Made by a program: the position numbers and the translations under genes. From Blastocatellia bacterium (GTDB lineage Bacteria; Acidobacteriota; Blastocatellia; HR10; J050): a DNA stretch of 41,954 nucleotides. The notes under the pieces are model-generated. The model made no database searches. It saw only the letters and a program-made list of their open reading frames with translations, and was not told the origin of the DNA. This document shows positions 2,874 through 41,695 of this stretch, one piece after another. Within the stretch, counting starts at the first letter, position 1. Every line of letters begins with the position of its first letter. The stretch is from assembly GCA_025054955.1 (NCBI GenBank), contig JANWZE010000038.1, positions 1 through 41,954 on the forward strand. Direction: 5' to 3'.

Positions 2874-3554
2874 ATGACTGATTTTGTTTTGAGATCGCAC
2901 GCATTGCATCGGGCCGCTCGGATCGGCCCTTGGCAGGTCGTGTTGGCCTCTCTTGCGATCATCAGCATGGGCGCGGCAGGTTTCTTTTATGTGCAAAACA
3001 GGCTGGCTGAGCAACAGCTCAATCAAGCTCAGGCGCGATACCAACAAGATCAAGCGACGCTCAATCAGTTGACCGAGCGGGTGAAAGAGATCGAGGCCCT
3101 TGAAAAAATTGATGTGCCTACGCCTGAGGCGATTCGCGCCAGTCTGGTCAAGTTTCAGGAGACATATCTATCCCCTGCGGAGACTGCTCAATTGCGCGCG
3201 ATTCGGGAAGTCAATCAGTTGGCCAAACAAAGTGGTGTTCTTGTCACAGAGATCAATTTCACAGCCATTGAGCAGCGGGCATTGCAAGGGGAAGCGGAAG
3301 GCGTCAAGAGCGCCAAGTCATTGTTTCCCGGGTTGGAGATGTCGTTCACAGTTGAGGGCAGCTACAGTAGTGTGCGGCAGTTTTTGGCTTCATTGGAGCG
3401 AAGTCGCGTCTTCATCATCGTTGATGCGCTGGAGCTGAAGAGCGTGGAGTCATCTGCTTCAGATGGACGAGGTCGCCAAGCCGGAGCTGCCACCGATCAA
3501 GTGATTGCATTAGGTCTCAAGCTGGCGGTGTATTATCAACGCGAGGTGTCATGA
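2874..3554 (+). CDS. pilO: PilO/GspM-like assembly protein
   Basis: 226 residues: one membrane segment (about 22-44), a coiled coil (about 45-85) and a compact periplasmic domain, typical of PilO/GspM. It follows pilN and overlaps the next gene by 4 bp (ATGA), suggesting coupled translation. PilO pairs with PilN to form the periplasmic alignment complex that links the inner-membrane platform to the secretin. The ribosome binding site (GAGGTGAG) lies just after the end of repeat copy 1. Confidence 0.75.
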   Translation: MTDFVLRSHALHRAARIGPWQVVLASLAIISMGAAGFFYVQNRLAEQQLNQAQARYQQDQATLNQLTERVKEIEALEKIDVPTPEAIRASLVKFQETYLSPAETAQLRAIREVNQLAKQSGVLVTEINFTAIEQRALQGEAEGVKSAKSLFPGLEMSFTVEGSYSSVRQFLASLERSRVFIIVDALELKSVESSASDGRGRQAGAATDQVIALGLKLAVYYQREVS

Positions 3555-4558
3555 CAAAAGAGAGAAAAGTTTTGCTAGGCTTATTAGCAGTGGCTGCTGG
3601 CGTCTTGCTGGTAGACCGATTTATTTTGTCTGATCAGGCGACCGGATCAACGGCCACGAACACAGCGAGGGCGTCAGCGCCGCCTGGCGGAAATCAAGCC
3701 AACCGCAAACCCTCTTCGAGGGAAATCCGAAATCCCAAATCCGAAGTCCGAAACGGTTCGGATTTGGGATTTCGTGCTTCGGATTTCCCCGCAGGGGCTT
3801 CTGAGGTCGAGCAGGGGTATCGTCCGTTGCCGTTGCACGTGCTGGCTCGGCGCGATGGTGTCACGGAGCAAGCGAGTCGAAACGTGTTTGTTTATTACGT
3901 GCCGCCGCCGCCACCGGTCAAACCGCCGCCACCGCCGCCACCGCCGCCGCTGGCGATTTACTCGCTGGAGCCACATTCGGTTTACGCCAGGACAAAAGAT
4001 TTCACGCTTACGGTCAAGGGCGCTCGGTTTCCCGAAGACGCGCAGATCGTTGTCAATGGGCGTCCTCTGAAGACGGAGCGCGTCAGCGAGGTCGAGCTGA
4101 GGGCCACTGTTGACAAGCGGATGATTGCCACGGCTGCGCCGCTTCAAGTGATGGTTAGGAATTCGACTGGAGAGCTCTACTCGAACCAATTGACGCTGGC
4201 TGTTCAAGAGCCAGAGCCACCGCGATACCGCTACCTTGGCCGTGTTGATGATCTTGTGTTCTTGCTCAAGAGTGATAACGAGCGCCTGGTGGCTCGCCTC
4301 AATGGCCAGTTGGTGGAGAACCGCTGGCTTGTCACGCAGGTATCGGCCGAGCGCGTTGTGCTCAAGGATGTGACATTGGATATCCTGCACACGCTGCCGA
4401 TCGAAGACGCGGACGCAAGCCCAGGCGGTCAAGTTGGCGGCGTGCTTAGTCCGAACCAGGGCAACATCAATCGCGGCCGTAATCCACGTTCAAACGTGAG
4501 GGTGACGGATATGCAGCCGGCAGAACCGGTCTCAGCCGAGGATGAAGAACCGCGATGA
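3551..4558 (+). CDS. GspC/PilP-like secretin-linking protein with IPT/TIG-like domain and an in-frame repeat
   Basis: 335 residues. Residues 5-25 form a membrane anchor. Residues 54-83 are encoded by a copy of the heptad palindromic element inserted in frame. A proline tract (VPPPPPVKPPPPPPPPP) follows near residues 117-133. Residues about 135-218 resemble an IPT/TIG immunoglobulin-like domain (LTVKGARFPEDAQIVVNG). Residues about 222-285 (RYLGRVDDLVFLL...) look like the GspC/PilP homology region that contacts the secretin. The gene overlaps pilO and the next gene by ATGA junctions. Role inferred: inner-membrane protein reaching through the periplasm to GspD. The TIG insertion and the repeat-encoded linker are unusual for the family. 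Confidence 0.6.
   Translation: MTKERKVLLGLLAVAAGVLLVDRFILSDQATGSTATNTARASAPPGGNQANRKPSSREIRNPKSEVRNGSDLGFRASDFPAGASEVEQGYRPLPLHVLARRDGVTEQASRNVFVYYVPPPPPVKPPPPPPPPPLAIYSLEPHSVYARTKDFTLTVKGARFPEDAQIVVNGRPLKTERVSEVELRATVDKRMIATAAPLQVMVRNSTGELYSNQLTLAVQEPEPPRYRYLGRVDDLVFLLKSDNERLVARLNGQLVENRWLVTQVSAERVVLKDVTLDILHTLPIEDADASPGGQVGGVLSPNQGNINRGRNPRSNVRVTDMQPAEPVSAEDEEPR
3710..3797 (+). repeat. Heptad palindromic element, copy 2 (inside coding sequence)
   Basis: Complete 88-bp copy, A end to B end, fully inside the GspC/PilP-like gene and translated without a stop. It encodes residues 54-83, in the linker between the membrane anchor and the proline tract. Confidence 0.95.
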
Positions 4559-5559
4559 GAGGTGAAGCATTGCCCCTGCGGGGAAATTCGAAATCCCCAA
4601 TCCGAAACGTTTCGAATTTCGATATTCGGATTTCGGATTTCCCTCCAACAGGGTCTCAGGCAGGTTACATGCTGATTGTTACGCTCGGTATGCTCACCGT
4701 GTTTTTGGTGCTGGCTGCCGGCATTGCGCCGTCGGTGGCGCAAGAGTTGCGGCGCGAACGTGAGACGGAGATGCTCTTTCGGGGGCAGCAGATTGTTGAC
4801 GCCATTGGGCGGTATAGGATTTTGGCTCAGCGCATCATGGCCGCTGGCGGCGCTGAGCAGCAGCCGCCTGTCGTGCCAGGAGGACAAGCTGTGCCTGGCG
4901 CGGTCGGATTCGGTTGGCCGCAATCGTTGGAGCAATTGGTTGATGGCGTCAACGTGCGCGGCTCCACGCGCAAAGTGCGCCTGCTTCGACCATTCGCATT
5001 GAAGGACCCGGTCAACGGCAACAAACCGTGGCGACCGGTCGGATTCAATGATGAGGCATTACGGGAATTTCTGGAGGCGTACTTTGAGACGATGGGTCAG
5101 CCGCTCTCGGTTTGGCCGCCACAGTTTCGCATGCAGTATTTGGGCAATACGGTTGAGTTGGGTCGAGGCGACAGCGGCAGCGCCCGCGGCAGGGCGCCTT
5201 CTGCGTTCAGGGGACCGGCCACTGATGGACAGGATGCTCAGCCACGCTACATCTTCGGTGTGGTGAGTGAAAGCGACGAGGAGCCACTGCGGGATTATTA
5301 CGGCCTGGAGCGGTATAACCGATGGGTCTTCGCGTTTATCCCTGAGCTGCAGTCGGTCCCGGCGGATATGGACAAACAGATCGAAATGCTCAGCCGCGAA
5401 GTGATATATCCGACGGACCCGCTGGCTTTGAGGCAACTGGGCGGGGCATTTCGGCCGATCGCTCCGGTTGGACAGGTGCCTGGCCAAGCGCCTCCGGGCG
5501 GAGCGGCCAACGCTCCAGGTCCTGCAACGCCACCCAGCGGCAAACCGCCGATTCGATGA
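4555..5559 (+). CDS. Pseudopilin-like protein with repeat-encoded leader
   Basis: 334 residues. The start ATG overlaps the previous stop (ATGA). The likely prepilin-type site is G37|Y38 (QAG|YMLIVTLGM), followed by a hydrophobic N-helix and a charged segment (QELRRERETEMLFRGQQIVD). Position +5 is Val rather than the usual Glu, as in GspK-type minor pseudopilins. Size also fits GspK better than GspG, but the family is not established. The body (about 60-300) is unassigned and the C-terminus is proline-rich. Residues 7-33 of the leader are exactly one copy of the heptad element. No ATG, GTG or TTG occurs in frame between the repeat and Y38, so the repeat must be translated unless initiation is at the internal ATG 4669, which would remove the cleavage site. 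Confidence 0.6.
   Translation: MRGEALPLRGNSKSPIRNVSNFDIRISDFPPTGSQAGYMLIVTLGMLTVFLVLAAGIAPSVAQELRRERETEMLFRGQQIVDAIGRYRILAQRIMAAGGAEQQPPVVPGGQAVPGAVGFGWPQSLEQLVDGVNVRGSTRKVRLLRPFALKDPVNGNKPWRPVGFNDEALREFLEAYFETMGQPLSVWPPQFRMQYLGNTVELGRGDSGSARGRAPSAFRGPATDGQDAQPRYIFGVVSESDEEPLRDYYGLERYNRWVFAFIPELQSVPADMDKQIEMLSREVIYPTDPLALRQLGGAFRPIAPVGQVPGQAPPGGAANAPGPATPPSGKPPIR
4573..4653 (-). repeat. Heptad palindromic element, copy 3 (inside coding sequence)
   Basis: Complete 81-bp copy (27 codons), B end first, with a variant A end (CCCTCCAACAGGG). It encodes leader residues 7-33 of the pseudopilin-like protein. Confidence 0.9.
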
Positions 5560-5563
5560 GGCT

Positions 5564-6775
5564 ATGGCGACATTCATTTGCCGATTAGGAACGCCGATGG
5601 GCGAGATTTTAACGCGCACGATGGATGCCGCGTCAGAAGATGAAGTGCGGCTGCGCTTGTCGCGCGAGGGCTACCATATCTTCTCGATCAAGCGCGAGCG
5701 TGATGTGTTCAGGTTATGGTCAGGCCGGCCGCGGCGTCTGAAGCTGGAGCCGTTTCTCCATTTCAACCAACAATTGGCCGCGCTGATTCAAGCTGGACTG
5801 CCGATTTTGCAGGCCATTTCTTTGTTAGCCAAACGTCAAACGAATCCAGCGTTGCGCCACGTATTGAAGCAGATCGAAGCGCGCATTCGCGAGGGAACGC
5901 CGATGTCAGAAGCGTTTGCCGCGCAAGGTGACGTCTTCCCGAAGTTGTACACGGCCTCGTTGCTGGCCGGTGAGAAATCGGGCAATCTGGACGGCGTGTT
6001 AACCCGGTATATCGCTTACACCAAGCAGGTGCTTTCGCTGAAGCGGAAAGTGCGCCAGGCGATGACCTATCCGGTTCTGCTCATTGTGGCGTTGATTGGG
6101 CTGGTCGGCGTAATGACGAGTTTTGTGATTCCGCGATTTGCCATCATCTACAGGGATTTTGGCACGGAGTTGCCGACGATCACCCAGATGGTGCTGGCCG
6201 CCGGCGAAGCCACACAACGGAATTTATACTGGCTGTTTCCGGCGTTGGTCGCTGCGATTGCTGCTTTGTTCATCTGGCGTCGGACCAGTCGTGGCCGTGA
6301 GCTGATTGACGGATTGCTGCTGAAGGTGCCGCTGGTGGGTCAAATCATTCGCGATGCCACCACAGCGCAGTTAGGCCGGAGTTTGGCCACGTTGTTGCAA
6401 GGCGGCGTGACGCTGGTTGAATCGTTTCGCATCGCCAACGAGACGATCACCAATCGCGCGCTGGCGCGACTGAGCGCGCCTGTTTTGCCGCGCATTCGCG
6501 AAGGGCAGTCTTTTTCTGAGAGCCTGGAGCAAGCCGGCTGGCTGTCGCCGTTGGCGATTGATATGGTTCGCGTCGGCGAGCGTTCAGGCAGTTTGAAAGA
6601 AATGCTGGAAGAGTTGGCCAGTTTCTACGACGCTGAACTGGAGCTGCAACTGAATCAGTTGACCGCGCTAATTCAGCCGGTGGTGTTGATCTTGATGGCG
6701 GGGCTTGTTGTGATTGTTTTGCTGGCCATGTATCTTCCGTTGTTCAGCTTGTTATCGTCATTAGGGAATGTATGA
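5564..6775 (+). CDS. gspF: Type II secretion / type IV pilus platform protein GspF (PilC)
   Basis: 403-residue polytopic inner-membrane platform protein. It begins MATFICRLGTPMGEILT, the usual GspF opening, 4 bp after the previous stop, so I reject a longer frame starting at 5468. Two GspF domains are visible, about residues 65-190 (QQLAALIQAGLPILQAI, ...LLAGEKSGNLDGVL) and 270-395 (LGRSLATLLQGGVTLVES, ...VGERSGSLKEML), with three membrane segments near 170-190, 220-240 and 375-400. The stop overlaps the start of gspE (ATGA). It works with the GspE ATPase to extract and polymerise pseudopilins. Confidence 0.92.
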   Translation: MATFICRLGTPMGEILTRTMDAASEDEVRLRLSREGYHIFSIKRERDVFRLWSGRPRRLKLEPFLHFNQQLAALIQAGLPILQAISLLAKRQTNPALRHVLKQIEARIREGTPMSEAFAAQGDVFPKLYTASLLAGEKSGNLDGVLTRYIAYTKQVLSLKRKVRQAMTYPVLLIVALIGLVGVMTSFVIPRFAIIYRDFGTELPTITQMVLAAGEATQRNLYWLFPALVAAIAALFIWRRTSRGRELIDGLLLKVPLVGQIIRDATTAQLGRSLATLLQGGVTLVESFRIANETITNRALARLSAPVLPRIREGQSFSESLEQAGWLSPLAIDMVRVGERSGSLKEMLEELASFYDAELELQLNQLTALIQPVVLILMAGLVVIVLLAMYLPLFSLLSSLGNV

Positions 6776-8427
6776 GCACTGAAGTCAATTTTGACGCTCT
6801 CATCGGCGGGCCGGATACGGCGGCCGCGCCGCCGGAAACGCCTGAGCAGGAGCAGGCGCGGGCGCGGCAACTGGCCGAGCGGTATCGTTTGCCGTTTGTT
6901 GATCTGACACAAGTCCGATTGGATCAGGAATTGCTTCACGTCTTGCCGGTCGAGGTGATGATTCAGTATCGCTTTGTGCCGCTGCGGCGTGAAAACGGGC
7001 ATCTGGTGATCGCGATTGCCGATCCGACGGCGCTGGACAAAGTGGATGAGATCGCCTCGCGTCTACGCAGTCGGGTGAAGCTGGCAGTGGCCACACCATC
7101 GGCGATTGACGCTGTGCTGACGCGTGGCGATGCCTCGCAGCGTGTGCTGGATGAAACGACGCAGCACTTGCGCGTGTCGCTCGTGCGGGAAACCGATCAA
7201 GGCGAGGAAGACCTTGATCTAGACCGTCTGACCGGCGACAAGCAGATGAGTCCGATTGTCAAGTTGGTGGACTCGGTTGTGTTGACGGCGCTGGAGCGCC
7301 GCGCCAGCGACATTCACATTGAGACGCGCGCCAACGATGTGTTCATCAAGTATCGTATTGACGGCGCGCTTTACCCGGCTGGCCCGCCCATTGACATTCA
7401 ACATCATCAGACAATCATCTCCCGCATCAAGGTGATGTCGGAGTTGGATATTGCCGAACGTCGTGTGCCGCAAGATGGGCGCTTCCGTGTGCGCGTGCGC
7501 GGACGGACCATTGACTTTCGCGTCTCGATCATGCCCACGATTCACGGGGAAGATGCCGTCATTCGTATTCTGGACAAGGAACAGATCAACGAGCAGTTCC
7601 GCGATCTGCGCTTGAGCGTGCTTGGATTCGAGGAGGATGATCTAGCTCGTTTTCGCCGGTTCATCAAAGAGCCTTACGGTATGATCCTGGTCACTGGGCC
7701 GACCGGCTCAGGCAAGACGACGACGCTTTATGCTTCGCTCAATGAAATTCGCAATGAAGAAGACAAAATTATCACGCTGGAAGACCCGGTGGAGTACCAA
7801 CTGCAAGGCGTCACGCAAATCCAGGTCAACGAGAAAAAGGGATTGACCTTTGCGCGCGGGCTGCGTTCGATTCTACGTCACGATCCGGACAAGATCATGG
7901 TCGGCGAAATTCGCGATTCAGAGACAGCGCAGATTGCCATCCAATCGGCGCTGACCGGCCACTTGGTGTTCACGACGGTGCATGCCAACAACGTCATTGA
8001 TGTGATTGGACGATTCTTGAACATGGGCGTTGAACCCTACAACTTCGTTGGCGCGCTCAACTGTGTGTTGGCTCAACGGCTGGTGCGCGTGCTTTGCAGT
8101 CAGTGCAAGAGAACCTACCGGCCGACCGATCAAGAGTTGGTGGAATCGGGACTGAATCCCGAACAGTATCGTCATTACACATACTATGAGATCGGCGGTT
8201 GCGACGCCTGCAACTGGACCGGGTATCGCGGCCGCACGGCGATTCATGAGTTGCTTGACATGAGTGACACGATACGCGAGCTGATCATCGAGCGCCGGCC
8301 TGGCTCGGAGATTCGGCGGGCAGCGCAAGCTGAAGGCCTGCGTTCGCTGCGTCAGTCGGCGGTACGAAAGGTGCTCGCCGGCGTGACGACGCTACGGGAG
8401 ATCAACCGCGTGACATTTGTCGAATAG
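6772..8427 (+). CDS. gspE: Type II secretion / pilus assembly ATPase GspE (PilB)
   Basis: 551-residue hexameric secretion ATPase. The N-terminal MshE-type domain spans about 30-135. The ATPase core has Walker A GPTGSGKT (309-316), an Asp box with ITLEDPVEYQ, Walker B IMVGEIRD (about 375-382) and His-box residues (FTTVHANN). A zinc-binding tetracysteine is formed by C442, C445, C477 and C480. It overlaps gspF by 4 bp. Sequence alone does not separate GspE from PilB; no PilT retraction ATPase is in the window, which mildly favours a secretion role. Confidence 0.93.
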   Translation: MSTEVNFDALIGGPDTAAAPPETPEQEQARARQLAERYRLPFVDLTQVRLDQELLHVLPVEVMIQYRFVPLRRENGHLVIAIADPTALDKVDEIASRLRSRVKLAVATPSAIDAVLTRGDASQRVLDETTQHLRVSLVRETDQGEEDLDLDRLTGDKQMSPIVKLVDSVVLTALERRASDIHIETRANDVFIKYRIDGALYPAGPPIDIQHHQTIISRIKVMSELDIAERRVPQDGRFRVRVRGRTIDFRVSIMPTIHGEDAVIRILDKEQINEQFRDLRLSVLGFEEDDLARFRRFIKEPYGMILVTGPTGSGKTTTLYASLNEIRNEEDKIITLEDPVEYQLQGVTQIQVNEKKGLTFARGLRSILRHDPDKIMVGEIRDSETAQIAIQSALTGHLVFTTVHANNVIDVIGRFLNMGVEPYNFVGALNCVLAQRLVRVLCSQCKRTYRPTDQELVESGLNPEQYRHYTYYEIGGCDACNWTGYRGRTAIHELLDMSDTIRELIIERRPGSEIRRAAQAEGLRSLRQSAVRKVLAGVTTLREINRVTFVE

Positions 8428-8430
8428 GAT

Positions 8431-8511
8431 CCCTCTTGGAGGGAAATCCGAAATCCAAAGCACGAAATCCGAAACGATTGGGATTTGGGATTTCGGATTT
8501 CCCCGCAGGGG
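8431..8511 (+). repeat. Heptad palindromic element, copy 4
   Basis: Complete 81-bp copy, A end (loop variant CCCTCTTGGAGGG) to B end, immediately after the gspE stop. Its B end continues into the tail block at 8512. Confidence 0.95.
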
Positions 8512-8592
8512 TTACGGATCACGGATCACAAATTCTGTGCTAAGCTGTGTGATCTATGGTTTCATTCCACAGATTACGGATCGAGGAACCAT
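8512..8592 (+). repeat. Tail block of the heptad element (GGATCAC units plus unique part)
   Basis: Starts TTACGGATCACGGATCAC, continues with AATTCTGTGCTAAGCTGTGT and ends near ATTACGGATCGAGG. An inverted, closely related copy lies at 33793-33897. Both abut the B end of a heptad element. Confidence 0.8.
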
Positions 8593-8613
8593 AAGGCAAG
8601 AATGGAAGGCGTT

Positions 8614-11130
8614 ATGAAAAGATGGATCGTTGTAGTCTTAGTATGCGGGTTATCCATGCCGGTGCCGGCTGGCGCGGCCAGTGGTAAGAAGCACTACCGA
8701 CAAGCAGTGGCGCTGGAGAATGAGAAGAAATACGATCAAGCGGCTGAGGCCTACATGCTGGCGCTGAGCCTGGAGCCGGATAATCTGGTCTACCGGATCG
8801 CCTACCAACGCACGGCGACGCAAGCATCGGTCATGCTGGTGCGGCAAGGGCGCGAGGCGCTGGAGCAAGGGCGCTATGAAGAGGCCTACAATCTCTTTCG
8901 TCGCGCCTACCAGTTCGATAAAACCAATGAGCTGGCCAAGGACTTAGCCGAACGAGCGCTCGACTTGCAACGGAAAGCCGATGGGCTCGCGCCGGCGCCT
9001 CTGACGGAAACGCCCTATGGCGCGTCAATACCGATCATCGGTCCCAATCCGCACAGCGCGAGCCAACAACGCCCAACAATTCCATCGGCCAAGGACGCAA
9101 CGAAAGACGACACGACGCTTTCACCGCTGTACCAGGTTCAAGACATCACACGGGCCAATGATGAGCTGGAGAACCACATTCGCGATCTGGCCGAGCGCAT
9201 CGGGCTGAACATTGTCTTCGATTCGTCGTTCCGTTCGCGCAAAATGCCGTTCAGAATGAAGAACGTGACGATTCCACAAGCGCTCGATACGCTGTTGATG
9301 AGCAACAATCTGTTCTTCGAGCCGATCAACGACAACACGTTGCTGGTGGCCATTGACAACACAGCCAATCGCGCGCGACTCCAACAAATGAGCGTGCAAA
9401 CGTTTTACCTGAAAAATTCCGATGAACAGACGGTGCAAACGATTCAAACCAACCTTTCGGCGCTCTTTGGGCAAAAGGTCATGGTCGTGCCTAATGCGCA
9501 GTTGCGTTCGCTAACTGTCCGCACGACTCCCGAAACGCTCAAGCTGGTCGGCAACATCATCCGGGCGCTGGACAAAGACAAACCTGAGGTGCTGATTGAT
9601 GTCAGTATCTATGAGGTGTCGCGCAACGATTTACTGGAGATCGGAAATCAATTGCTCTATGAGGGCTTTTTGCCGTCTGGTTCATCGGTGCCGACGCGCC
9701 CCAGCACGCTCAGCAACCTGGCGATCACGGCCGGGCAGGTTATCACCGAGCAACGGCTGGCGCTGGCTATTCCCACCAGCATTCTGCGCATCTTGCAGAC
9801 GCGCGGCAATAGCAAGCTGATTGACAGCATTCAAGTGCATGCGCTCGACGGGCAACAAGTCAGAGCCAATGTTGGCCAGCGCATCCCGATTCAGACGGCG
9901 TCGTTTCCTTCCAGTTTCGCCACGACCACACAGACGCAACCCAACCAGCCGCCGAATCAAAACCAAGGCGGATTTCTGGGCGGCGCGTTTGGTCTGGGTG
10001 TGCCGCAGATTGAATATCAAGACGTTGGCTTAAACATTCAAATCACGCCGACCATTTACACTGACGATGACATCAAGTTGGAGATGGAAATTGAAACATC
10101 CGGCGTGGCGGCTGGTGGCACGACGTTGACACCCATCTTCACGCAGCGGCGTCTGAAGAGCGTCGCGACAGTGCAAACGGGGCAAGCGGCCATGATGGCG
10201 GCGGTGGCGCAAAATCGGAAAGAGACAAGTCGAGGCGGATTGCCAGTGCTTGGCTTTTTGCCGGTCATCGGGCGATTCTTCAGCATCCCGACCGACCGAA
10301 CAGCTTCCACTGACCTGTTAATCACGGTTACGCCGCACGTGATTCGCTCAGCGGACATTCGTGAGGAAGATCAGTTAGCCATGTCATCCGGTTTGCAACT
10401 GATGGGGCTGTCCGATACGATCCAATCGTTTTTGGAAAAGCGTGAGCAAGCGCGTCGAGGACGCCAGTCAACCGACGTGACGCAGAAGGCCGCCGCGGCC
10501 GAGAACAAGCCAAAGCCGGCGGGCAGCGAATCGCCGGCCGGCGCTTCGCCTGCGCTGATGGGCGCTTTGTCGCCCTCAGACACGCAGATTTTGACAAACG
10601 ATCAGCGCGCCCTGGTTCCTGCCTTGACGCAATCGGCGCTGACGCAGAGCAGTGCAACGCCAAACGTCGCATCAAACCCGCTCGATACGAAACGCGCGGA
10701 CGCCGGTACGCTGGCCTTCATGCTTTACTCAGACACGCATCAGCCAAAGGTCGGTCAAAAGCTCAGCGTGACCGTTGTGGCGCAAGCGAAGGAACCGATC
10801 GGGCAGGGCAGTTTTGTCATTCACTACAGTCCGGCGATCTGGCGACTGGCGCAAGTCACCCAGAGTGATGTGCCGATGGCCGATGGCCGATACCCCGCTG
10901 TCTCGGTCAATCAAACCACTGATGGAATGGTCGAGATTCTGGTGCGGATGCCGGAGGGCATGGCCACGAGGCCTGCGCCGGTACCGTTGGCGCGGCTGGT
11001 GTTTGAGGTGGTCGGCGCCGGAGAGAGCGTGATAGCCGTGGCCACAGAGGCGACGATGTTTGTCTCGCCTGATGGCCGCTCGTTCACCTGTACAGCTCAG
11101 CCACTATCGCTGAAGACAGTGGGTCGCTAG
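8614..11130 (+). CDS. gspD: Secretin GspD/PilQ with N-terminal TPRs and C-terminal cohesin-like domain
   Basis: 838 residues from the ATG at 8614, which has GGAAGG just upstream and opens a signal peptide (MKRWIVVVLVCGLSMPVPAG). A longer in-frame extension to 8485 is repeat sequence and is not chosen. Residues about 25-125 form TPR-like helices (QAAEAYMLALSLEPDN). N0/STN and N1 domains follow (about 195-345; FRMKNVTIPQALDTLLMSNN). The secretin core is about 390-572, with the hallmark LPVLGFLPVIGRFF near 542-556 and LLITVTPHVIRS. After a low-complexity linker, residues about 695-838 resemble a cohesin domain (GQGSFVIHYSPAIWRLAQV). It forms the outer-membrane pore. The TPR and cohesin additions suggest self-sufficient targeting and external or periplasmic binding, which is inference. 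Confidence 0.9.
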   Translation: MKRWIVVVLVCGLSMPVPAGAASGKKHYRQAVALENEKKYDQAAEAYMLALSLEPDNLVYRIAYQRTATQASVMLVRQGREALEQGRYEEAYNLFRRAYQFDKTNELAKDLAERALDLQRKADGLAPAPLTETPYGASIPIIGPNPHSASQQRPTIPSAKDATKDDTTLSPLYQVQDITRANDELENHIRDLAERIGLNIVFDSSFRSRKMPFRMKNVTIPQALDTLLMSNNLFFEPINDNTLLVAIDNTANRARLQQMSVQTFYLKNSDEQTVQTIQTNLSALFGQKVMVVPNAQLRSLTVRTTPETLKLVGNIIRALDKDKPEVLIDVSIYEVSRNDLLEIGNQLLYEGFLPSGSSVPTRPSTLSNLAITAGQVITEQRLALAIPTSILRILQTRGNSKLIDSIQVHALDGQQVRANVGQRIPIQTASFPSSFATTTQTQPNQPPNQNQGGFLGGAFGLGVPQIEYQDVGLNIQITPTIYTDDDIKLEMEIETSGVAAGGTTLTPIFTQRRLKSVATVQTGQAAMMAAVAQNRKETSRGGLPVLGFLPVIGRFFSIPTDRTASTDLLITVTPHVIRSADIREEDQLAMSSGLQLMGLSDTIQSFLEKREQARRGRQSTDVTQKAAAAENKPKPAGSESPAGASPALMGALSPSDTQILTNDQRALVPALTQSALTQSSATPNVASNPLDTKRADAGTLAFMLYSDTHQPKVGQKLSVTVVAQAKEPIGQGSFVIHYSPAIWRLAQVTQSDVPMADGRYPAVSVNQTTDGMVEILVRMPEGMATRPAPVPLARLVFEVVGAGESVIAVATEATMFVSPDGRSFTCTAQPLSLKTVGR

Positions 11131-11139
11131 TGATGCCGA

Positions 11140-11220
11140 CCCCTGCTGGGAAATCCGAAGCACGAAATCCCAAATCCGAAACGTTTCGGATTTCGATATT
11201 CGGATTTCCCTCGAAGAGGG
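11140..11220 (-). repeat. Heptad palindromic element, copy 5
   Basis: Complete 81-bp copy, B end (CCCCTGCTGGG) to A end, filling the gspD-gspG gap. Its A end supplies GAAGAGGG directly before the gspG start. Confidence 0.95.
11213..11220 (+). promoter_or_regulatory. Ribosome binding site formed by the repeat end
   Basis: GAAGAGGG, the distal half of the A-type hairpin, lies 3 nt before the ATG at 11224. It is the only purine-rich Shine-Dalgarno candidate there; the spacing is short if pairing uses the last G residues but acceptable if it uses GAAGAGG. Confidence 0.4.
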
Positions 11221-11223
11221 CTA

Positions 11224-11712
11224 ATGAATCAAAAAGGGTTCACATTGCTGGAATTGATCGTCACCATCTTGATCCTGACGATCTTCACTGGCGCCGTCAT
11301 TCCGGTGGCCAGAAACACAATCAAGCGGCAAAAAGAGATCGAGCTGCGCCGCGCGTTGCGCGAGCTGCGCACGGCGTTGGATCGGTATCGGCAGATTGCC
11401 GATGCCGGCTTGATTAAGTCAACCGAAATCTCTCCGACCGATCAATGCATGGGCGGACAGATTGGTACCGGCTGCTATCCAAAGCGATTGGAGGATCTGG
11501 TTGAAGGTGTGCCGCTGTCTCGTGGCGTTGATCGTAAGATCAAGTTGCTCAGGAAAATTCCTATTGATCCAATGACCGGCAAAGCCGAGTGGGGAAAGCG
11601 CTCGTTTAGCGACGATCCGCAGTCTCAAAGCTGGAGCGGCCTGAACATTTTCGATGTCTATTCGCTTAGCGACGGCACGGCTTTGGATGGCACAAAATAT
11701 CGAGATTGGTAG
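11224..11712 (+). CDS. gspG: GspG-like pseudopilin
   Basis: 162 residues with a classic type IV prepilin leader of five residues (MNQKG|FTLLELIVTILIL) including Glu at +5. After the N-helix the soluble part carries GspG-like features, including KIPIDPMTGKAEWG and a C-terminal FDVYSLSDGTALDGTKYRDW, the typical GspG end (VYSGSDGTALDGTPYRDW-like). Prepilin peptidase would cleave after Gly5; no such peptidase gene is in the window. It lies 6 bp before a second pseudopilin gene. Confidence 0.88.
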   Translation: MNQKGFTLLELIVTILILTIFTGAVIPVARNTIKRQKEIELRRALRELRTALDRYRQIADAGLIKSTEISPTDQCMGGQIGTGCYPKRLEDLVEGVPLSRGVDRKIKLLRKIPIDPMTGKAEWGKRSFSDDPQSQSWSGLNIFDVYSLSDGTALDGTKYRDW

Positions 11713-11718
11713 GGCGTC

Positions 11719-12210
11719 ATGACCAAGATGGAATCCAACAAGCCCCTGCGGGGAAATCCCAAGCACGAAATCCGAAATTCGAAACGTTTCGGATTTCGGA
11801 TTTGGGATTTCGGATTTCCCTCAAAGAGGGCTCGCGGTTTCACATTGCTTGAATTGATCATTGTGCTGGTGGTCATCTCGGTCTTGCTCTCGGTAGCCAT
11901 TCCGCGCTATCAGGAAACGATTCGAGCAGCCAAGGAGAGCGTGCTCAAACAGAATTTGTATTTAATGCGTCGGCAGATCGAAGCGTTCGCTGCTGACAAC
12001 GGACGTTACCCGGACTCGCTTCAGCAACTTGTCGAGAAAGGCTACTTGCGAGAGATTCCGCTGGACCCGATTACCGATTCGCGGGAAACGTGGCAGGAGA
12101 TCAGAGAAGACAGCACCGGCCTTGGCTCGACCAGTCAACCGGGGATTGTGGATGTGCGCAGTGGCGCGGAGGGCGAATCATTGGAAGGGAAGCCCTATAG
12201 TGAATTGTGA
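11719..12210 (+). CDS. Second GspG-like pseudopilin with a 40-residue repeat-encoded leader
   Basis: 163 residues. The prepilin site is RARG40|FTLLELIIVLVVISVLL, with Glu at +5. A soluble domain with NLYLMRRQIEAFAADNGRYP and IPLDPITDSRETWQE follows, as in GspG. The C-terminus (VDVRSGAEGESLEGKPYSEL) parallels the GspG end. The leader is far longer than the five residues of its neighbour because it contains a full heptad element (about residues 9-37). The only usual start codons before the cleavage site are ATG 11719 and ATG 11728, both upstream of the element, so the element must be translated if the gene works. Cleavage would then discard it. Confidence 0.85.
   Translation: MTKMESNKPLRGNPKHEIRNSKRFGFRIWDFGFPSKRARGFTLLELIIVLVVISVLLSVAIPRYQETIRAAKESVLKQNLYLMRRQIEAFAADNGRYPDSLQQLVEKGYLREIPLDPITDSRETWQEIREDSTGLGSTSQPGIVDVRSGAEGESLEGKPYSEL
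11743..11830 (-). repeat. Heptad palindromic element, copy 6 (inside coding sequence)
   Basis: Complete 88-bp copy, B end to A end (loop variant CCCTCAAAGAGGG), inside the leader region of the second GspG-like gene. Confidence 0.95.
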
Positions 12211-12252: not shown

Positions 12253-12340
12253 CCCTCTTCGAGGGAACTTCCAAATCCCAAATCGGAAATCCGAAACGTT
12301 TGGGATTTCGGATTTGGGATTTCGGATTTCCCCGTAGGGG
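12253..12340 (+). repeat. Heptad palindromic element, copy 7
   Basis: Complete 88-bp copy, A end to B end (loop variant CCCCGTAGGGG), between the second pseudopilin and the PilM-like gene. Confidence 0.95.
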
Positions 12341-13316: not shown

Positions 13317-13436
13317 CCCCTGCGGGGAAATCCGAAATCCCAAATCCGAAATCCCAAACGTTTCGGATTTGGGATTTGGGATTTGGGATTTGGAAGTTCC
13401 CTCGAAGAGAGCTTGGGATTTCCCTCAAACAGGAGG
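13317..13436 (-). repeat. Heptad palindromic element, copy 8 (95 bp plus duplicated A end)
   Basis: B end at 13317, A end (CCCTCGAAGAGAG) ending 13411: 95 bp, one 7-nt unit longer than the 88-bp form. A further A-like end follows at 13412-13436 after CTTGGGATTT. Upstream, GATCACGGTAG abuts the B end. Confidence 0.9.
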
Positions 13437-14275: not shown

Positions 14276-15481
14276 ATGCTGATGACCGCTTTTTACATTC
14301 TGGCGCTGCTGGCTGTGATTCAAGGTCTCATTGCCTTGATGGAAGGAATTCGCTACTGGCAATATGTTCGCTCAAACCTGGCTGAGCTGCCCGCTGATTA
14401 CCTGCCAAAAGTCGCTGTCGTGGTGCCGTGTAAAGGGCTTGAGACAGATTTCCGCGAGAATATCTTGTCATTGCTCGGACAGGACTACCCCGACTATGAG
14501 ATCATTTTCGTGACCGAGGCAGACACCGATCCGGCGTATCGTCAACTGGCCGGCATTCTGCAGGAACAGAGTTTTCCTCACGCCGTGTTGATCACGGCTG
14601 GTCTTGCTCAGTCACGCTCGCAGAAAATTCACAACCTGCTCGTTGGGTTGGAGTACGTGTCTGACGACGTGGAAGTCTTCGCTTTCGCCGATGCTGATGC
14701 TACGCCAACAAGCTTCTGGCTCCGCTGGCTTGTGGCGCCGCTGGCTGATCCAACCGTTGGGGCGACAACCGGCTATCGGTGGTACGTCCCGGCGCGCGGC
14801 AATGCTCCATCTCTGTTGCGATCACTCTGGAATGCCACCATTGTGACTGCATTGGGGCCGCATCAACGAAATTTTTCCTGGGGCGGCTCGATGGCTATTC
14901 GTCGCAGAACATTTCAGTCAGTCGGTGTATCTGAGCGGTGGGTTAATGCCTGCGCCGATGATTACGCCTTAAGCCGCGCTGTCAAAGAGCAAGGCCTGTA
15001 TGTTCGATTTGTTCCCGCCTGCTTGTTGCCCTCACGCGGCCCGTGCTCGTTGGCCGAGCTGCTTCGGTTTACCACGCGCCAGATGATCATCACCCGCGTT
15101 TACTGGCCGGCATTGTGGTGGCTGGCGCTGGTTTCCAATCTGTTGTTTTTCGCTGTTTTTTATGGTGGCATAGGAATTTGGTTATGGCGCTGGTGGGCGG
15201 GACTGGACGTGGGCGCCGTACCGTGGATTGTGACGTTCATCTACCTGCTCGGTTTGCTCAAAAGCCTGTTCAGACAGAAGGCTGTCGAACTCGTGTTGAA
15301 AGAGCATCGGGCGGAATTGAAACGGTATCGGTTGGCTTATTGGTTGCTCTATCCACTGGCCAACTTGATCTTCCTCTACAACCTGATCGTCTCCGCGGTC
15401 AGCCGTGTGATCGAGTGGCGCGGCGTCCGCTACAAACTCGTCTCGCCAACGCAGACGTGGATTGTGGATCGTGGCTCGTGA
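14276..15481 (+). CDS. Membrane glycosyltransferase, ceramide glucosyltransferase-like (GT21/GT2)
   Basis: 401 residues with an N-terminal membrane helix (4-25), a GT-A domain (about 45-260) and three to four C-terminal membrane helices. Motifs: VAVVVPCKGLE (nucleotide-binding strand), FADADA (DxD), CADDYALSRAVKEQG (catalytic Asp pair) and RQMIITRVYW resembling the Q/RxxRW motif. This layout matches ceramide glucosyltransferase / HpnI-type enzymes, which transfer a sugar from a nucleotide sugar to a lipid. Acceptor and sugar are not predictable here. The C-terminus runs into GTG-rich heptad sequence (IVDRGS), so the last residues may be repeat-derived. Confidence 0.75.
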   Translation: MLMTAFYILALLAVIQGLIALMEGIRYWQYVRSNLAELPADYLPKVAVVVPCKGLETDFRENILSLLGQDYPDYEIIFVTEADTDPAYRQLAGILQEQSFPHAVLITAGLAQSRSQKIHNLLVGLEYVSDDVEVFAFADADATPTSFWLRWLVAPLADPTVGATTGYRWYVPARGNAPSLLRSLWNATIVTALGPHQRNFSWGGSMAIRRRTFQSVGVSERWVNACADDYALSRAVKEQGLYVRFVPACLLPSRGPCSLAELLRFTTRQMIITRVYWPALWWLALVSNLLFFAVFYGGIGIWLWRWWAGLDVGAVPWIVTFIYLLGLLKSLFRQKAVELVLKEHRAELKRYRLAYWLLYPLANLIFLYNLIVSAVSRVIEWRGVRYKLVSPTQTWIVDRGS

Positions 15482-15509
15482 TTCGTGGCTCGTGGACCGT
15501 GGTCCGTAG
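15470..15509 (-). repeat. Degenerate tail-type 7-nt units (TCGTGGC/TCGTGAT)
   Basis: Run of GTGGATCGTGGCTCGTGATT-like units overlapping the end of the glycosyltransferase gene and running into the A end of copy 9. Confidence 0.55.
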
Positions 15510-15648
15510 CCCTCTTCGAGGGAAATCCCAAGCCCTCTTCGAGGGAAATCCGAAGCACGAAATCCCAAATCCGAACCGTTTCGGATTTCGATATTCGGAT
15601 TTCGGATTTCCCCGCAGAGGTTATGGATCACGAGTCACGAATCCCGGA
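15510..15648 (+). repeat. Heptad palindromic element, copy 9, with duplicated A end and tail
   Basis: An extra 23-bp A-end unit (15510-15532) precedes a complete 88-bp element (15533-15620, B end CCCCGCAGAGG). The B end continues into a short GGATCAC-type tail (15621-15648) that overlaps the folE start region. Confidence 0.9.
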
Positions 15649-16240: not shown

Positions 16241-16374
16241 CCCTCTTCAGCCCTCTTCGAGGGAAATTCCAAATCCGAAGCACGAAATCCGAAACGTTTG
16301 GGATTTCGGATTTCGTGCTTGGGATTTCCCCGCAGGGGCTTGGGATTTCCCCGCAGGGGTTACGAATCACGAAA
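16241..16374 (+). repeat. Heptad palindromic element, copy 10, in a convergent gene gap
   Basis: Complete 88-bp element (16251-16338) with a partial extra A end (16241-16250), an extra 21-bp B end (16339-16359) and a short tail (TTACGAATCACG) to 16374. It fills the whole space between the folE stop and the oppC stop, so its hairpins could end transcription from both sides. Confidence 0.92.
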
Positions 16375-17460
16375 TTATCCCCATTCCGAGGGGCGTGTGC
16401 GCGAGCGCGGGTCGAGCCAGTCGCGGACCGCGTCGCCAAGCGCGTTGAACGTCAGCACGGTCACCAGGATGGCCACGCCCGGCATGAGTATCCACCAATC
16501 GTTGAGCAGGACAGGCAGTTCCCGCGCCGCGCTCAACATGTTGCCCCAGCTCGGTTGAGGCTCCTGGATGCCCACGCCGAGAAACGACAGGGCTGCTTCA
16601 CCGAGAATGAACGAAGGCACAATAATCGTGGCTTGCACAAGCGCCGGCGTCAGCGCATTGGGCAGGATATGATGGCGGATCACCCAGCTATCTGGCGCTC
16701 CAACCGCCTTGGCAGAAACGACAAATTCGCGGCTCATCAACGTCAGCACATTGCTCCTGACCAAGCGGGAGACTTCCGGCCAACTGACAAGGGCAAAGAT
16801 GGCGATCAGTATGGCCAATGTCTGAGCATAGGAAATGTCGAGCGGAAACGCCGCGCGTAAAGCGAGAATCAGAAAGATCGCCGGGATGGATTGAACAAGC
16901 TCGCCAAGCCTCATCAACACAGCGTCCACACGACCGCCAAAGTAGCCTGACACGCCCCCAATGGAGACTCCCAGCACGAGCGCGACAACCAGACTGCTCA
17001 GCGCAATACTGAGCGTGACGCGGCAGCCATATACCAACCGTGAAAACACGTCGCGTCCCAACCGGTCTGTGCCCAACAGGTGCACGCGGGTTGTCGTCGG
17101 CTGTAGGGTGTTGGCAGTCACCTGCTGTTGATTTGGCACTTGCAGACCGAACAGATGAAGCGAGCCTTCAAATACGCCCAGCAGCTTATACGAATCGCCT
17201 CGAACGAAGAATGCCAGAGGATAACGCTCTTGTCGGTTTTCGGTGTAGTGCCGGCCTGGCACACTCAGGTCGCGTTGCACCGCGTATACGAAGGGACGAA
17301 GATGGAACCGGCCATGCTCATCAATGAAGCGAATGGGCATCGGCGGCAAGCCGATGAATGGCCGGTGTTGCGTGCGAACGTCGTAAGGAGCGATGAATTC
17401 GCCAAACATGGCGCCGACAGCCAGTAGGCTGAGCCAGAGCATGATGAGCCATCTCTTCAT
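16375..17460 (-). CDS. Peptide/nickel-type ABC transporter permease (OppC/DppC-like)
   Basis: 361 residues. An N-terminal membrane helix is followed by an unusually long periplasmic insert (about 25-130) before the permease core (about 145-340). The EAA loop is EFVVSAKAVGAPDSWVIRHH, the coupling helix for the ATPase. It lies 72 bp downstream of the OppB-like gene in the same direction. The complex would import oligopeptides or related solutes together with the binding protein encoded divergently at 18705. No ATPase gene is in the window. Confidence 0.88.
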   Translation of the reverse strand: MKRWLIMLWLSLLAVGAMFGEFIAPYDVRTQHRPFIGLPPMPIRFIDEHGRFHLRPFVYAVQRDLSVPGRHYTENRQERYPLAFFVRGDSYKLLGVFEGSLHLFGLQVPNQQQVTANTLQPTTTRVHLLGTDRLGRDVFSRLVYGCRVTLSIALSSLVVALVLGVSIGGVSGYFGGRVDAVLMRLGELVQSIPAIFLILALRAAFPLDISYAQTLAILIAIFALVSWPEVSRLVRSNVLTLMSREFVVSAKAVGAPDSWVIRHHILPNALTPALVQATIIVPSFILGEAALSFLGVGIQEPQPSWGNMLSAARELPVLLNDWWILMPGVAILVTVLTFNALGDAVRDWLDPRSRTRPSEWG

Positions 17461-20450: not shown

Positions 20451-20554
20451 CCCCTGCGGGGAAATCCGAAATCCGAAGCACGAAATCCGAAACGTTTCGG
20501 ATTTGGGATTTCGGATTTCCCTCGAAGAGGGCTTGGGATTTCCCTGGAAGAGGG
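20451..20554 (-). repeat. Heptad palindromic element, copy 11, with duplicated A end
   Basis: Complete 81-bp element (20451-20531, B end to A end) plus an extra 23-bp A-end unit (20532-20554, CCCTGGAAGAGGG). Confidence 0.93.
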
Positions 20555-32937: not shown

Positions 32938-33024
32938 CCCCTGCGGGGAAATCCGAAATTCCAAATCCGAAATCCAAATGTTTGGAATTTCGGATTTCGT
33001 GCTTGGGATTTCCCTCGAAGAGGG
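32938..33024 (-). repeat. Heptad palindromic element, copy 13
   Basis: 87-bp copy (one base short of 88), B end to A end, just downstream of the response regulator gene. Confidence 0.92.
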
Positions 33025-33792: not shown

Positions 33793-33897
33793 GTTGTCAT
33801 TTTTGGGGGGCGCATTCCGTGATCCGTGATCCGTAGAATAGAGCCACAGATTACACAGATTAGCACAGAATTCGTGATCCATGATTCGTGACCGTAA
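33793..33897 (-). repeat. Tail block of the heptad element, inverted copy
   Basis: On the - strand it reads TTACGGTCACGAATCATGG, then CACGAATTCTGTGCTAATCT and ends with GGATCACGGATCACGG. It matches the block at 8512-8592 and abuts the B end of copy 14. Confidence 0.8.
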
Positions 33898-33983
33898 TCC
33901 CTGCGGGGAAATCTGAAATTCCAAATCCGAAATCCCAAACGTTTCGGATTTCGGATTTCGTGCTTCGAATTTCCCCGCAGGGG
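33898..33983. repeat. Heptad palindromic element, copy 14 (two B ends)
   Basis: The only complete copy with B-type hairpins on both sides (first base variant, TCCCTGCGGGG, and CCCCGCAGGGG). Its 86 bp equals 88 minus the 2-bp difference between A and B ends, so the core length is the standard one. Confidence 0.9.
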
Positions 33984-37276: not shown

Positions 37277-37364
37277 CCCCTCCGGGGAAATCCGAAATTC
37301 GAAGCACGAAATCCCAAACGTTTCGGATTTGGGATTTCGTGCTTCGGATTTCCCGCGAAGAGGG
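37277..37364 (-). repeat. Heptad palindromic element, copy 15
   Basis: Complete 88-bp copy, B end (loop variant CCCCTCCGGGG) to A end (CCCGCGAAGAGGG), between gltS and the sensor kinase gene. Confidence 0.92.
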
Positions 37365-39364: not shown

Positions 39365-39455
39365 AAGCACGAAATCCGAAATTCGAAACGTTTGGGATTT
39401 CGGATTTGAAATTTCAGATTTCCCCGCAGGGGTTACCGATCACGAATCACGAATA
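39365..39455 (+). repeat. Heptad palindromic element, copy 16 (5'-truncated) with tail
   Basis: The A end is missing; the core and B end (39422-39432) are intact and continue into a GTTACCGATCACGAATCACG tail to about 39455. Confidence 0.88.
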
Positions 39456-39552: not shown

Positions 39553-39685
39553 CCCTCTTCGAGGGAAATCCCAAGCCCTCTTCGAGGGAAATCCGAAGCA
39601 CGAAATCCCAAATCCGAAACGTTTCGGATTTCGTGCTTCGAATTTCGGAATTTCCCCGCAGGGGCTTGGGATTTTCCCGCAGGGG
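39553..39685 (+). repeat. Heptad palindromic element, copy 17, both ends duplicated
   Basis: Extra A unit of 23 bp (39553-39575), main element 39576-39664 (89 bp), extra B unit of 21 bp (39665-39685). It lies just before the peptidase ribosome binding site. Confidence 0.93.
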
Positions 39686-39708: not shown

Positions 39709-41604
39709 ATGAAAACGCGCTATTGGCTCGTAATTGCTTTAGTCATTGTCACGATGGGGTTGGCTTTGAGGGTGACCTCTTCGGAGTACGGCGACAAACG
39801 AACGTTCGTCGTGTCTGCGATCACGCCGCAAGAACTCTACTGGCATATTCGCTACCTGGCTTCTGATGATTTGAAGGGACGATTCACCGGCACGCCTGAA
39901 GCGCGGGAAGCGGCTCGCTACATTGCTGATGAGTTCCGCTCGTATGGAGTGAAGCCGTTGGGCGATGCCGTCGGCAGCAGCTACTTTCAGACGTTCCCCT
40001 TTATTGCTGGCGTGAAATTAGGGGAGAAGAACCATCTGTCATCGAACATGGCCGGTCGCGCACGGCAGTGGACGCTCAAACAGGATTTCATGCCGATGGC
40101 GTTTTCTGCGCCGATGTCGGTTGAAGGTGAAGTGGTGTTTGCCGGCTATGGCATTTCGGCCACAGACCTCGGGTATGACGATTATGCCGGAATAGAGGTG
40201 GCCGGTCGCATCGTCATGGTGCTGCGGCACTCGCCTGAAGGGGATCATCCGCACAGCCGATTTGAGCGACATGCCAGTTTGCGGGCCAAGGCCTTGATGG
40301 CGCGTCAGCGGGGAGCCAGGGCGATTATCTTCATCGCCGACGACGAGGATTTCAAGAACAACAAGCTGGCGCAGTTGGAATTTGATTACAGCTTTTCTGA
40401 TGCCGGCATTGTGGCTGTGGGCGTGAGCCGTCAACTGGCTCGCGAGTGGATCGCATCCAGTGGGGCTAACCTGGATGAGTTGCAGAATCAAATCAACCAG
40501 CAGCAGAAGCCCAGTTCGCGGGTGCTCACGGGCGTGACAGCCAGCGTGCAGGTTGATCTGGTGAAGGACACGCAGCCGGCTGACAATGTCATCGGCTACA
40601 TCGAGGGCAACGATCCAAATCTGAAGCACGAGGTTGTCATTATCGGCGCTCATTATGATCATCTTGGGTTAGGTGGGCCAAGCTCGCTTGCGCCGCAGCA
40701 ACGTGGCGAAGTGCATAACGGCGCTGATGACAATGCGTCAGGCACGGCTGGGTTACTGGAATTAGCGCAGCTTTGCGCGGCTCGACGGTCTGAACTCAAG
40801 CGCAGTCTGTTATTCATCGCGTTTTCCGGCGAAGAAGAGGGATTGCTCGGATCAAACTATTACGTCAAACATCCGGTCATTCCGTTGGAGCGCACCATTG
40901 CCATGCTCAACATGGATATGATCGGGCGGCTCAAGGAGAACACGTTGAACGTGCAGGGTGTTGGCACGTCGCCGCAATGGCCTGCCTTGTTGGAAGAAGT
41001 CAATCGTGACTTATCGCAGCCGGCTGCCGGTTCATCGCCCGAATCACGGATCACGAATCACGACCCAGGGACCACGAGGTTCACGTTGAAGCTCACTTCT
41101 GACGGAGCCGGTCCAAGCGATCATGCAGCATTTTATCTGAAAGACATCCCCGTCTTGTTCTTCTTCACCGGCACGCATAGCGACTATCACAAGCCATCGG
41201 ATGATTTCGACAAGATCAATGCCGAAGGGCAAGCGCGTGTGGTTCAGTTCATTTACGACACGTTGATGAAGATTCAGGCGCTACCGACGCGACCATCGTT
41301 CACCAAGACGCAATCGTCTGAGATGGGCCGCCGCGGTTTCCGCGTCACGTTCGGGGTGATGCCTGATTATGCCGAAGAGGCAGAGGGCATGAAGATTTCC
41401 GGCGTGCGCGAAGGCAGCGCGGCTGAGAAAGCTGGTTTGAAGGCCGGCGATGTGCTGGTTCGCATTGGCGCCACCAAGATCAAAAACGTCCATGATTACA
41501 TGTTTGTGCTTGGCGAATTGAAAGCCGGCGAAGCCGTCGAGGTCGAAGTCATCAGAGAGGGGCGACGGTTGGTATTTAATGTTGTGCCCGAAAAGAGAAA
41601 CTGA
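39709..41604 (+). CDS. M28-family zinc aminopeptidase with PA and PDZ domains
   Basis: 631 residues; GGGAGGGAG lies just before the ATG. N-terminal membrane anchor or signal (WLVIALVIVTMGLALRV). A PA domain is inserted (about 140-260; VEGEVVFAGYGISATDLGYD). Zinc and catalytic residues of M28: H315 (GAHYDHLG), D340 (NGADDNASG), E375/E376 (FSGEEEGLLG), D403 (LNMDMIG) and H494 (GTHSDYHKPSDD). A PDZ domain (about 540-628; GVREGSAAEKAGLKAGDVLV) ends the protein. Residues about 445-457 (ESRITNHDPGTTR) are encoded by a GGATCAC/GAATCAC heptad tract between conserved segments. It probably trims peptides in the periplasm. Confidence 0.92.
   Translation: MKTRYWLVIALVIVTMGLALRVTSSEYGDKRTFVVSAITPQELYWHIRYLASDDLKGRFTGTPEAREAARYIADEFRSYGVKPLGDAVGSSYFQTFPFIAGVKLGEKNHLSSNMAGRARQWTLKQDFMPMAFSAPMSVEGEVVFAGYGISATDLGYDDYAGIEVAGRIVMVLRHSPEGDHPHSRFERHASLRAKALMARQRGARAIIFIADDEDFKNNKLAQLEFDYSFSDAGIVAVGVSRQLAREWIASSGANLDELQNQINQQQKPSSRVLTGVTASVQVDLVKDTQPADNVIGYIEGNDPNLKHEVVIIGAHYDHLGLGGPSSLAPQQRGEVHNGADDNASGTAGLLELAQLCAARRSELKRSLLFIAFSGEEEGLLGSNYYVKHPVIPLERTIAMLNMDMIGRLKENTLNVQGVGTSPQWPALLEEVNRDLSQPAAGSSPESRITNHDPGTTRFTLKLTSDGAGPSDHAAFYLKDIPVLFFFTGTHSDYHKPSDDFDKINAEGQARVVQFIYDTLMKIQALPTRPSFTKTQSSEMGRRGFRVTFGVMPDYAEEAEGMKISGVREGSAAEKAGLKAGDVLVRIGATKIKNVHDYMFVLGELKAGEAVEVEVIREGRRLVFNVVPEKRN
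41041..41079 (+). repeat. Tail-type heptad tract inside the M28 peptidase gene
   Basis: GAATCAC-GGATCAC-GAATCAC-GACCCAG units continue the reading frame. Three 7-nt units are 21 bp (seven codons), which keeps the frame. Confidence 0.7.
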
Positions 41605-41607
41605 AAA

Positions 41608-41695
41608 CCCTCTTCGAGGGAAATTCCAAGCACGAAATCCCAAATCCGAAACGTTTCGGATTTCGTGCTTCGGGTTTCGGATTTCCCCGCAGGGG
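41608..41695 (+). repeat. Heptad palindromic element, copy 18, in a convergent gene gap
   Basis: Complete 88-bp copy filling the space between the peptidase stop (41604) and the kinase stop (41696). Its hairpins could serve as a two-way terminator. Confidence 0.95.

Follow-up and report, generated by a model that had tools for sequence, protein, structure and literature searches.

A heptamer-armed palindromic element in the leader of a Blastocatellia pseudopilin and its probable kinship to S23 loci

Introduction

REPINs are miniature mobile DNAs built of paired hairpins. The Rickettsia palindromic elements (RPEs) are palindromes of ~150 bp, present in many copies, that lie in frame in protein-coding genes (Ogata et al. 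2000, 2002, reviewed in PMC10969869). In Coxiella, the intervening sequence (IVS) of the 23S rRNA has terminal inverted repeats and an ORF for S23p, with tandem heptamers (GACAGAT) just before it; a mobility role was proposed for the IVS ORF in 1993, and S23p seems not to be produced in this organism (PMC4990558). Heptanucleotide repeats, among them those of Calothrix, GGGAATC in Xanthomonas and GGGGA(T/C)T in Nostoc, are over-represented in cyanobacteria and little studied, according to the parts of PMC4692102 used here.

We analyzed a window of 41,954 nucleotides on contig C38 in the genome (G000) of a Blastocatellia bacterium (Acidobacteriota), in which an element with features of each of these systems lies in the leader of a T2SS pseudopilin gene.

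The 88-bp element in the gspG2 leader

Two GspG-like pseudopilin genes are adjacent on the forward strand of the window. The first, gspG1 (11224-11712), has a leader of five residues (MNQKG^FTLLEL), while the second, gspG2 (11719-12210; 163 residues), has a leader of 40 residues (11719-11838), its start reading MTKMESNKPLRGNPKHEIRNSKRFGFRIWDFGFPSKRARG^FTLLELIIV. The cleavage motif G^FTLLELIIV, a Pfam N_methyl match at residues 36-60 and a mature part 72-74% identical to the nearest relatives identify the latter. By repeat search and profile match, positions 11743-11830 of the forward strand are a complete 88-bp palindromic inverted-repeat element, read in frame at codons 9-37 of the leader. 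Hence, the translation, the repeat family and the N_methyl match bear out the preliminary description, which had placed a full element in this long leader and noted the short one of its neighbor.

The element reads CCCCTGCGGGG-AAATCC..AAACGTTT..GGATTT-CCCTCAAAGAGGG. Its termini are small hairpins, CCCCTGCGGGG at one end and CCCTC-AAA-GAGGG at the other, and its inverted arms are made up of the 7-bp units AAATCCG, AAATCCC and AAGCACG, which meet at AAACGTTT. The family consensus runs from CCCC-TGC-GGGG through inverted 7-bp-unit arms joined at AAACGTTT to CCCTC-GAA-GAGGG, the boundaries beyond CCCC...GGG being fuzzy. The RNA of the leader copy folds with a minimum free energy of -60.6 kcal/mol over 151 nt (z = -4.7) and its DNA with z = -5.4; in both cases none of the shuffles folds equally well, indicating that the palindrome is not a product of chance. 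An Rfam search of the window returned no match.

The only in-frame ATG, GTG or TTG starts of gspG2 are at 11719 and 11728, both 5' of the element as the preliminary description had it, and from the end of the element to GFTLLE the frame has none. The homologous region shared with the nearest relatives begins at, or just past, the end of the element. Further upstream, an ATG at 11687 (11687-11722, forward strand) opens the reading frame MAQNIEIGRAS, which then runs into a stop; since relatives use an overlapping start, it is likely the remnant of an ancestral one, and translation now probably starts at 11719 or 11728 instead. The stop, together with a Shine-Dalgarno sequence before ATG 11719 that reads as a weak TAGGG, could also be taken to mean that gspG2 uses a non-standard start inside or after the element, or that the gene is decaying, so that the element would be effectively intergenic and no long leader would exist. 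We consider this unlikely: there is no start codon after the element, the mature GspG2 is intact and well conserved, and eight other genomes with arrays at this site have in-frame starts only before or within the array. We therefore favor a leader that would be translated from ATG 11719 or 11728 and then cut by prepilin peptidase.

Copies in the window and the genome

The window holds ~18 copies of the 88-bp family. In addition to the leader copy, profile matches place one at 11140-11220 (forward), ending a few bases before the gspG1 ATG, one between gspE and the secretin gene (8431-8511, reverse), one between gspG2 and a PilM-like gene (12253-12340, reverse) and one downstream of the latter (13317-13410, forward). 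Others match the profile on the forward strand at 20451-20531, 32938-33024 and 37277-37364, and on the reverse strand at 15533-15620, 16251-16338 (with a duplicated end module), 33906-33983, 39576-39664 (with duplicated end modules) and 41608-41695. Two more are read within genes: 3710-3797 (reverse) in frame in the linker of the GspC-like ORF 3551-4558, and 4573-4653 (forward), which encodes N-terminal residues of ORF 4555-5559 in frame. We take the last of these to be the first of the two insertions in removable leaders of one operon that had been described. For that ORF no Pfam pilin match was obtained and the residue at +5 is not Glu, so that it is a plausible, GspK-like, but putative pseudopilin.

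Another family of short repeats (GATCACGAATCACGA / TTCGTGATCCGTG) is seen in the window at 8511-8540, 15480-15510, 16360-16380, 33860-33897, 39432-39455 and 41031-41063, in many cases directly adjoining the 88-bp element. The contig end (5-148) carries direct repeats of ~22-33 nt (AATACAGGGGTTGGGGGCAA).

Across the 4.69-Mb genome a 22-nt core with at most three mismatches yields 74 matches, compared with none for the reversed control pattern; the copy census combines such pattern searches with selected stretches, which were picked partly for holding copies. The dispersed copies lie on several contigs and are 86-96% identical to the query. In the stretches examined, 69 of 74 long copies fall on five contigs with a combined share of 3.9% of the genome (C5, C38, C43, C102 and C134), of which C5 and C134 share an exact overlap of 141 bp at an element copy and are accordingly neighbors. 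Contamination was considered as a cause of this clustering and is not favored, as the pseudopilin operon is single-copy in the genome, the assembly is 99.5% complete and 0.3% contaminated, and the GC content of the element-rich contigs is much like that elsewhere.

The core, which reaches up to 73 matches per strand in G000, has no match in either of the two same-family genomes, G001 and G002, which points to an expansion that was probably both recent and lineage-specific. Among 162 genomes of the class, one good full-length copy was found outside this genome, the few others being weak 22-nt matches. This single well-preserved copy (L175; G005:C24:16670) comes from a different genus within the order, one without S23, and might have been acquired by horizontal transfer.

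Thus, the family presents itself as gene-less 88-bp units with inverted arms in ~74 dispersed core copies, as would be expected of MITEs. In the flanks of 48 full copies, target-site duplications were not seen above the level of shuffled pairs; hence, we term the element MITE-like only and its transposition putative. No transposase gene is linked to the element, and within the loci examined the two Y1 transposase (Y1_Tnp) loci of the genome lack the element ends. The latter observation bears on an alternative in which the repeats are REPINs, i.e. paired REP hairpins moved by a Y1 (RAYT/IS200-like) transposase, with any S23 connection being secondary. The small terminal hairpins, their inverted pairing, the lack of a target-site duplication and the presence of two candidate RAYT genes would all fit it; however, neither Y1 locus has the ends, and arms of 7-bp units and a match to an S23 locus (see below) are not REPIN features, making this improbable. 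We give far less credence still to the simple-sequence expansion of a heptamer by slippage, with the inverted arms owed to chance or to a local inversion. The number of 7-bp units does differ among copies and composite copies with duplicated end modules do occur, but slippage fits poorly with ends that are fixed, hairpin termini that are conserved and not part of the repeat, the high identity of the dispersed copies and an empty paralogous site.

Reading through the element

Most copies of the family are free or nearly free of stops in six frames. Zero stops in any of the six frames are seen in 44 of 73 long copies as against 1.4% of random 88-nt windows, and the full copies contain 58 six-frame stops in total as against ~560 in shuffles. 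We considered this openness as proof of selection; it is weakened as such by the fact that ~50% of circular heptamers drawn at random have no stop on either strand, so that the repeat itself may account for it.

Insertions in open frames, comparable to those of the RPEs, recur in genes beyond the three T2SS cases (window 11743, 4573 and 3710). For instance, copies lie in frame inside a domain of two CobN/Mg-chelatase (CobN/BchH-type) ORFs (C102:6794 and C102:9214) and in the linker of a BchI/BchD-like fusion (C102:5409). A sulfatase-like gene (C5:16307) likewise holds an in-frame copy, and its paralog on the same contig preserves the empty site (VDSSALYP versus VDAT[27 aa]ANALYP). Taken together, copies are found in either orientation, in intergenic DNA as well as midway through enzyme genes, and some of the contigs that bear them have no connection with pili.

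The chelatase region of C102 (L125:4215-10655) comprises a BchI-VWA fusion and a CobN/BchH-type chelatase whose N-terminal half (8361-10655) comes after the C-terminal one (ORF 6488-8401). These genes raised the question of phototrophy, which was set aside as no PsaA/PsaB-type reaction center was found in the genome.

The same leader site in relatives

In many relatives gspG2 apparently starts within the end of the adjacent gspG1 (e.g. MERSIVIGK overlapping ...KYSDW*). As a consequence, the sole stretch not needed in any mature protein is that which runs from the gspG1 stop codon to the first codons of mature GspG2. Since it codes solely for a removable leader, a stop-free insert in the right frame adds ~29 residues that prepilin peptidase would remove.

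We observed period-7 arrays in the GspG2 leader of eight other genomes (G010, G011, G017, G019, G025, G027, G041 and G053) beside that of the window. These inserts occupy the same spot, from the gspG1 stop to the start of the mature GspG2, and are unrelated in sequence; their units differ in all but the congeners G017 and G025, implying at least eight lineages. The leader of G003 was left out of this count, as its array has period 8 rather than 7: this leader (L202 / L012) consists of GGCCCCTC units that encode a SSAPRLLG peptide. It indicates that heptamer arrays are not alone in entering the GspG2 leader.

The comparison of orthologous operons that had been suggested as a check gives a divided answer. 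On one side, elsewhere in the class, G015 has a short and empty leader space (MERSIVIGKLRQAK^GFSLLE), while its congener G041 has the same start followed by a heptamer palindrome (MERSIVIGK-SILDFRFWILDS...SIQNPKSKIQNQK^GFSLLE), and leaders of 14 residues are possible in most members of g4, a genus of the same order as the window genome (G004, G005 and G007-G009). On the other, the same-family genomes G001 and G002 have possible leaders of 33-39 residues without any array, which counts in part against the preliminary reading, as long leaders free of the repeat had been named there as refuting it.

Of 43 arrays in 424 kb, 10 fall in the GspG2 leader, taken as 150 nt in each genome; this is 29-fold above a uniform expectation, and the excess is ~3-fold if arrays are confined to a rough intergenic space that was assumed to be 12%. 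Such arrays are present in 9 of 28 S23-positive genomes and in none of 17 S23-negative ones (Fisher p = 0.009), or, counted by genus, in 7 of 16 versus 0 of 9 (p = 0.027), kinship being only partly corrected for in either comparison.

The repeated targeting of one leader by roughly three times the intergenic expectation might be read as a sign of a selected regulatory role at gspG2, with the hairpin at codons 9-37 slowing translation or providing an RNase III site that tunes the pseudopilin level. The very stable fold of the RNA would suit such a role, and the stems of the 23S rRNA IVS are RNase III substrates in Coxiella (PMC4990558). However, the leader sequences vary by genome, most relatives have none and copies of the same family sit in unrelated places in either orientation; we therefore regard regulation as improbable. 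Accordingly, of the two options raised in the preliminary description, a shared role through slowed translation or a 5' hairpin finds no positive support given both orientations, the varied contexts and leader inserts that differ by genome. Repeated tolerance is well upheld: the GspC-like linker and the beginning of ORF 4555 carry in-frame copies of the family as well, and unrelated heptamer arrays recur in orthologous GspG2 leaders.

Linkage to S23 genes

A profile search recovered half-elements on further contigs of the genome. On C103 an S23 gene (PF05635, 23S rRNA IVP) is enclosed by two of them as arms, the left arm matching positions 1-42 of the element model and the right arm positions 25-88 or 43-88. 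On C6, half-elements flank what reads as a decayed copy of the C103 S23 gene. No ORF belongs to the window element itself, and the related C103 locus alone has the S23 gene between the inverted repeats; its matching left and right arms make it a candidate parent, of putative mobility, for the 88-bp form.

To place this locus in context, we consider 71 S23 loci of Blastocatellia. In 82% of them the flanks are mutually inverted repeats (score of at least 18), as compared with 3.9% of swapped flanks, 0.1% of random windows and none of 30 PIN-domain loci. In the periodicity of the S23 flanks, lags 7 and 14 alone are in excess, and this signal is gone past ~180-240 nt. In cyanobacterial plasmids, 13 of 14 S23 loci score at least 17 and ~12 of 14 have a clear 7-bp unit; hence, the period of the window element (AAATCCG/AAATCCC/AAGCACG) is that of both the Blastocatellia and the cyanobacterial S23 loci. 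Along the same lines, the T2SS regions contain 43 period-7 blocks in 424 kb of S23-positive genomes and one in 312 kb of S23-negative genomes, with kinship again only partly corrected for. In the literature that we covered, mostly in non-subscription journals, we did not find a general rule of period-7 inverted arms stated for S23 genes.

The GxxExxY genes (PF13366, PDDEXK_3), which had been meant as a second control, proved unsuitable on account of arms of their own, leaving the PIN genes as the clean control. At loci L278-L307, 26 of 30 lie between inverted arms with units of ~8-11 nt, such as ACGCAGAG, and not 7. Inverted arms are therefore not unique to S23, and the GxxExxY loci are possibly a second class of armed element. 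At three cyanobacterial plasmid loci (L265, L269 and L274) armed S23 genes were seen inside CRISPR-cas operons (cas6-S23-cas4, cas10-S23-cmr3), a placement that could lead surveys of gene co-occurrence to class S23/IVP as CRISPR-associated.

In light of the above, we interpret the leader insert, with reasonable though not full confidence, as a MITE-like element without a gene, derived from an S23/heptamer element, that was inserted and tolerated in the removable gspG2 leader. The 88-bp form would have arisen from a longer S23-bearing element by loss of the S23 gene; S23, or some host enzyme, may drive its movement; and one copy would have landed between the gspG1 stop codon and the first mature GspG2 codons, where its being translatable, and its removal together with the leader of the prepilin, would explain why it is tolerated. 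A broader proposal, which we offer tentatively and hold to be rather less probable than its opposite, is that the four-helix-bundle S23 proteins are markers, and perhaps drivers, of a widespread group of mobile elements with freely varying arms of 7-bp units, of which cyanobacterial and other heptanucleotide repeats, rRNA IVSs and translatable palindromes are members or remnants.

Comparison with known systems

The present case extends the in-frame insertion of short palindromes into proteins to a further lineage, and the GspG2 leader amounts to a natural experiment in which unrelated arrays have entered one disposable leader time and again. Should the S23 link hold, it would join three subjects, namely heptanucleotide repeats, the function of the S23/IVP protein and the origin of the 23S rRNA IVS. 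For annotators, repeat-derived N-termini and linkers are to be expected in genomes of this kind.

Among the described systems, REPIN/RAYT (PMC3116915) resembles the 88-bp family in its paired hairpins, and target-site duplications are likewise not detected here; the 88-bp element differs in having long heptamer arms and in having neither a linked RAYT nor, within the loci examined, a cognate Y1 transposase that shares its termini. The heptanucleotide repeats are, as here, dispersed arrays of 7-bp units, some of them inverted; they are described as simple repeats or G-quadruplex motifs, with no link to S23 or mobile elements drawn in the parts of that source used here (PMC4692102). With the 23S rRNA IVSs that carry an S23p ORF, in Coxiella and Leptospira, the S23 loci share the S23 ORF between inverted repeats, whereas the copies here are dispersed outside rRNA and the window element is gene-less and lies in a coding leader. 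By description, the RPEs offer a likeness in being short, multi-copy palindromes in frame within genes, as is true of the 88-bp element; the latter differs from them in belonging to another lineage and in its arms of 7-bp units, its hairpin ends and its S23-bearing relative.
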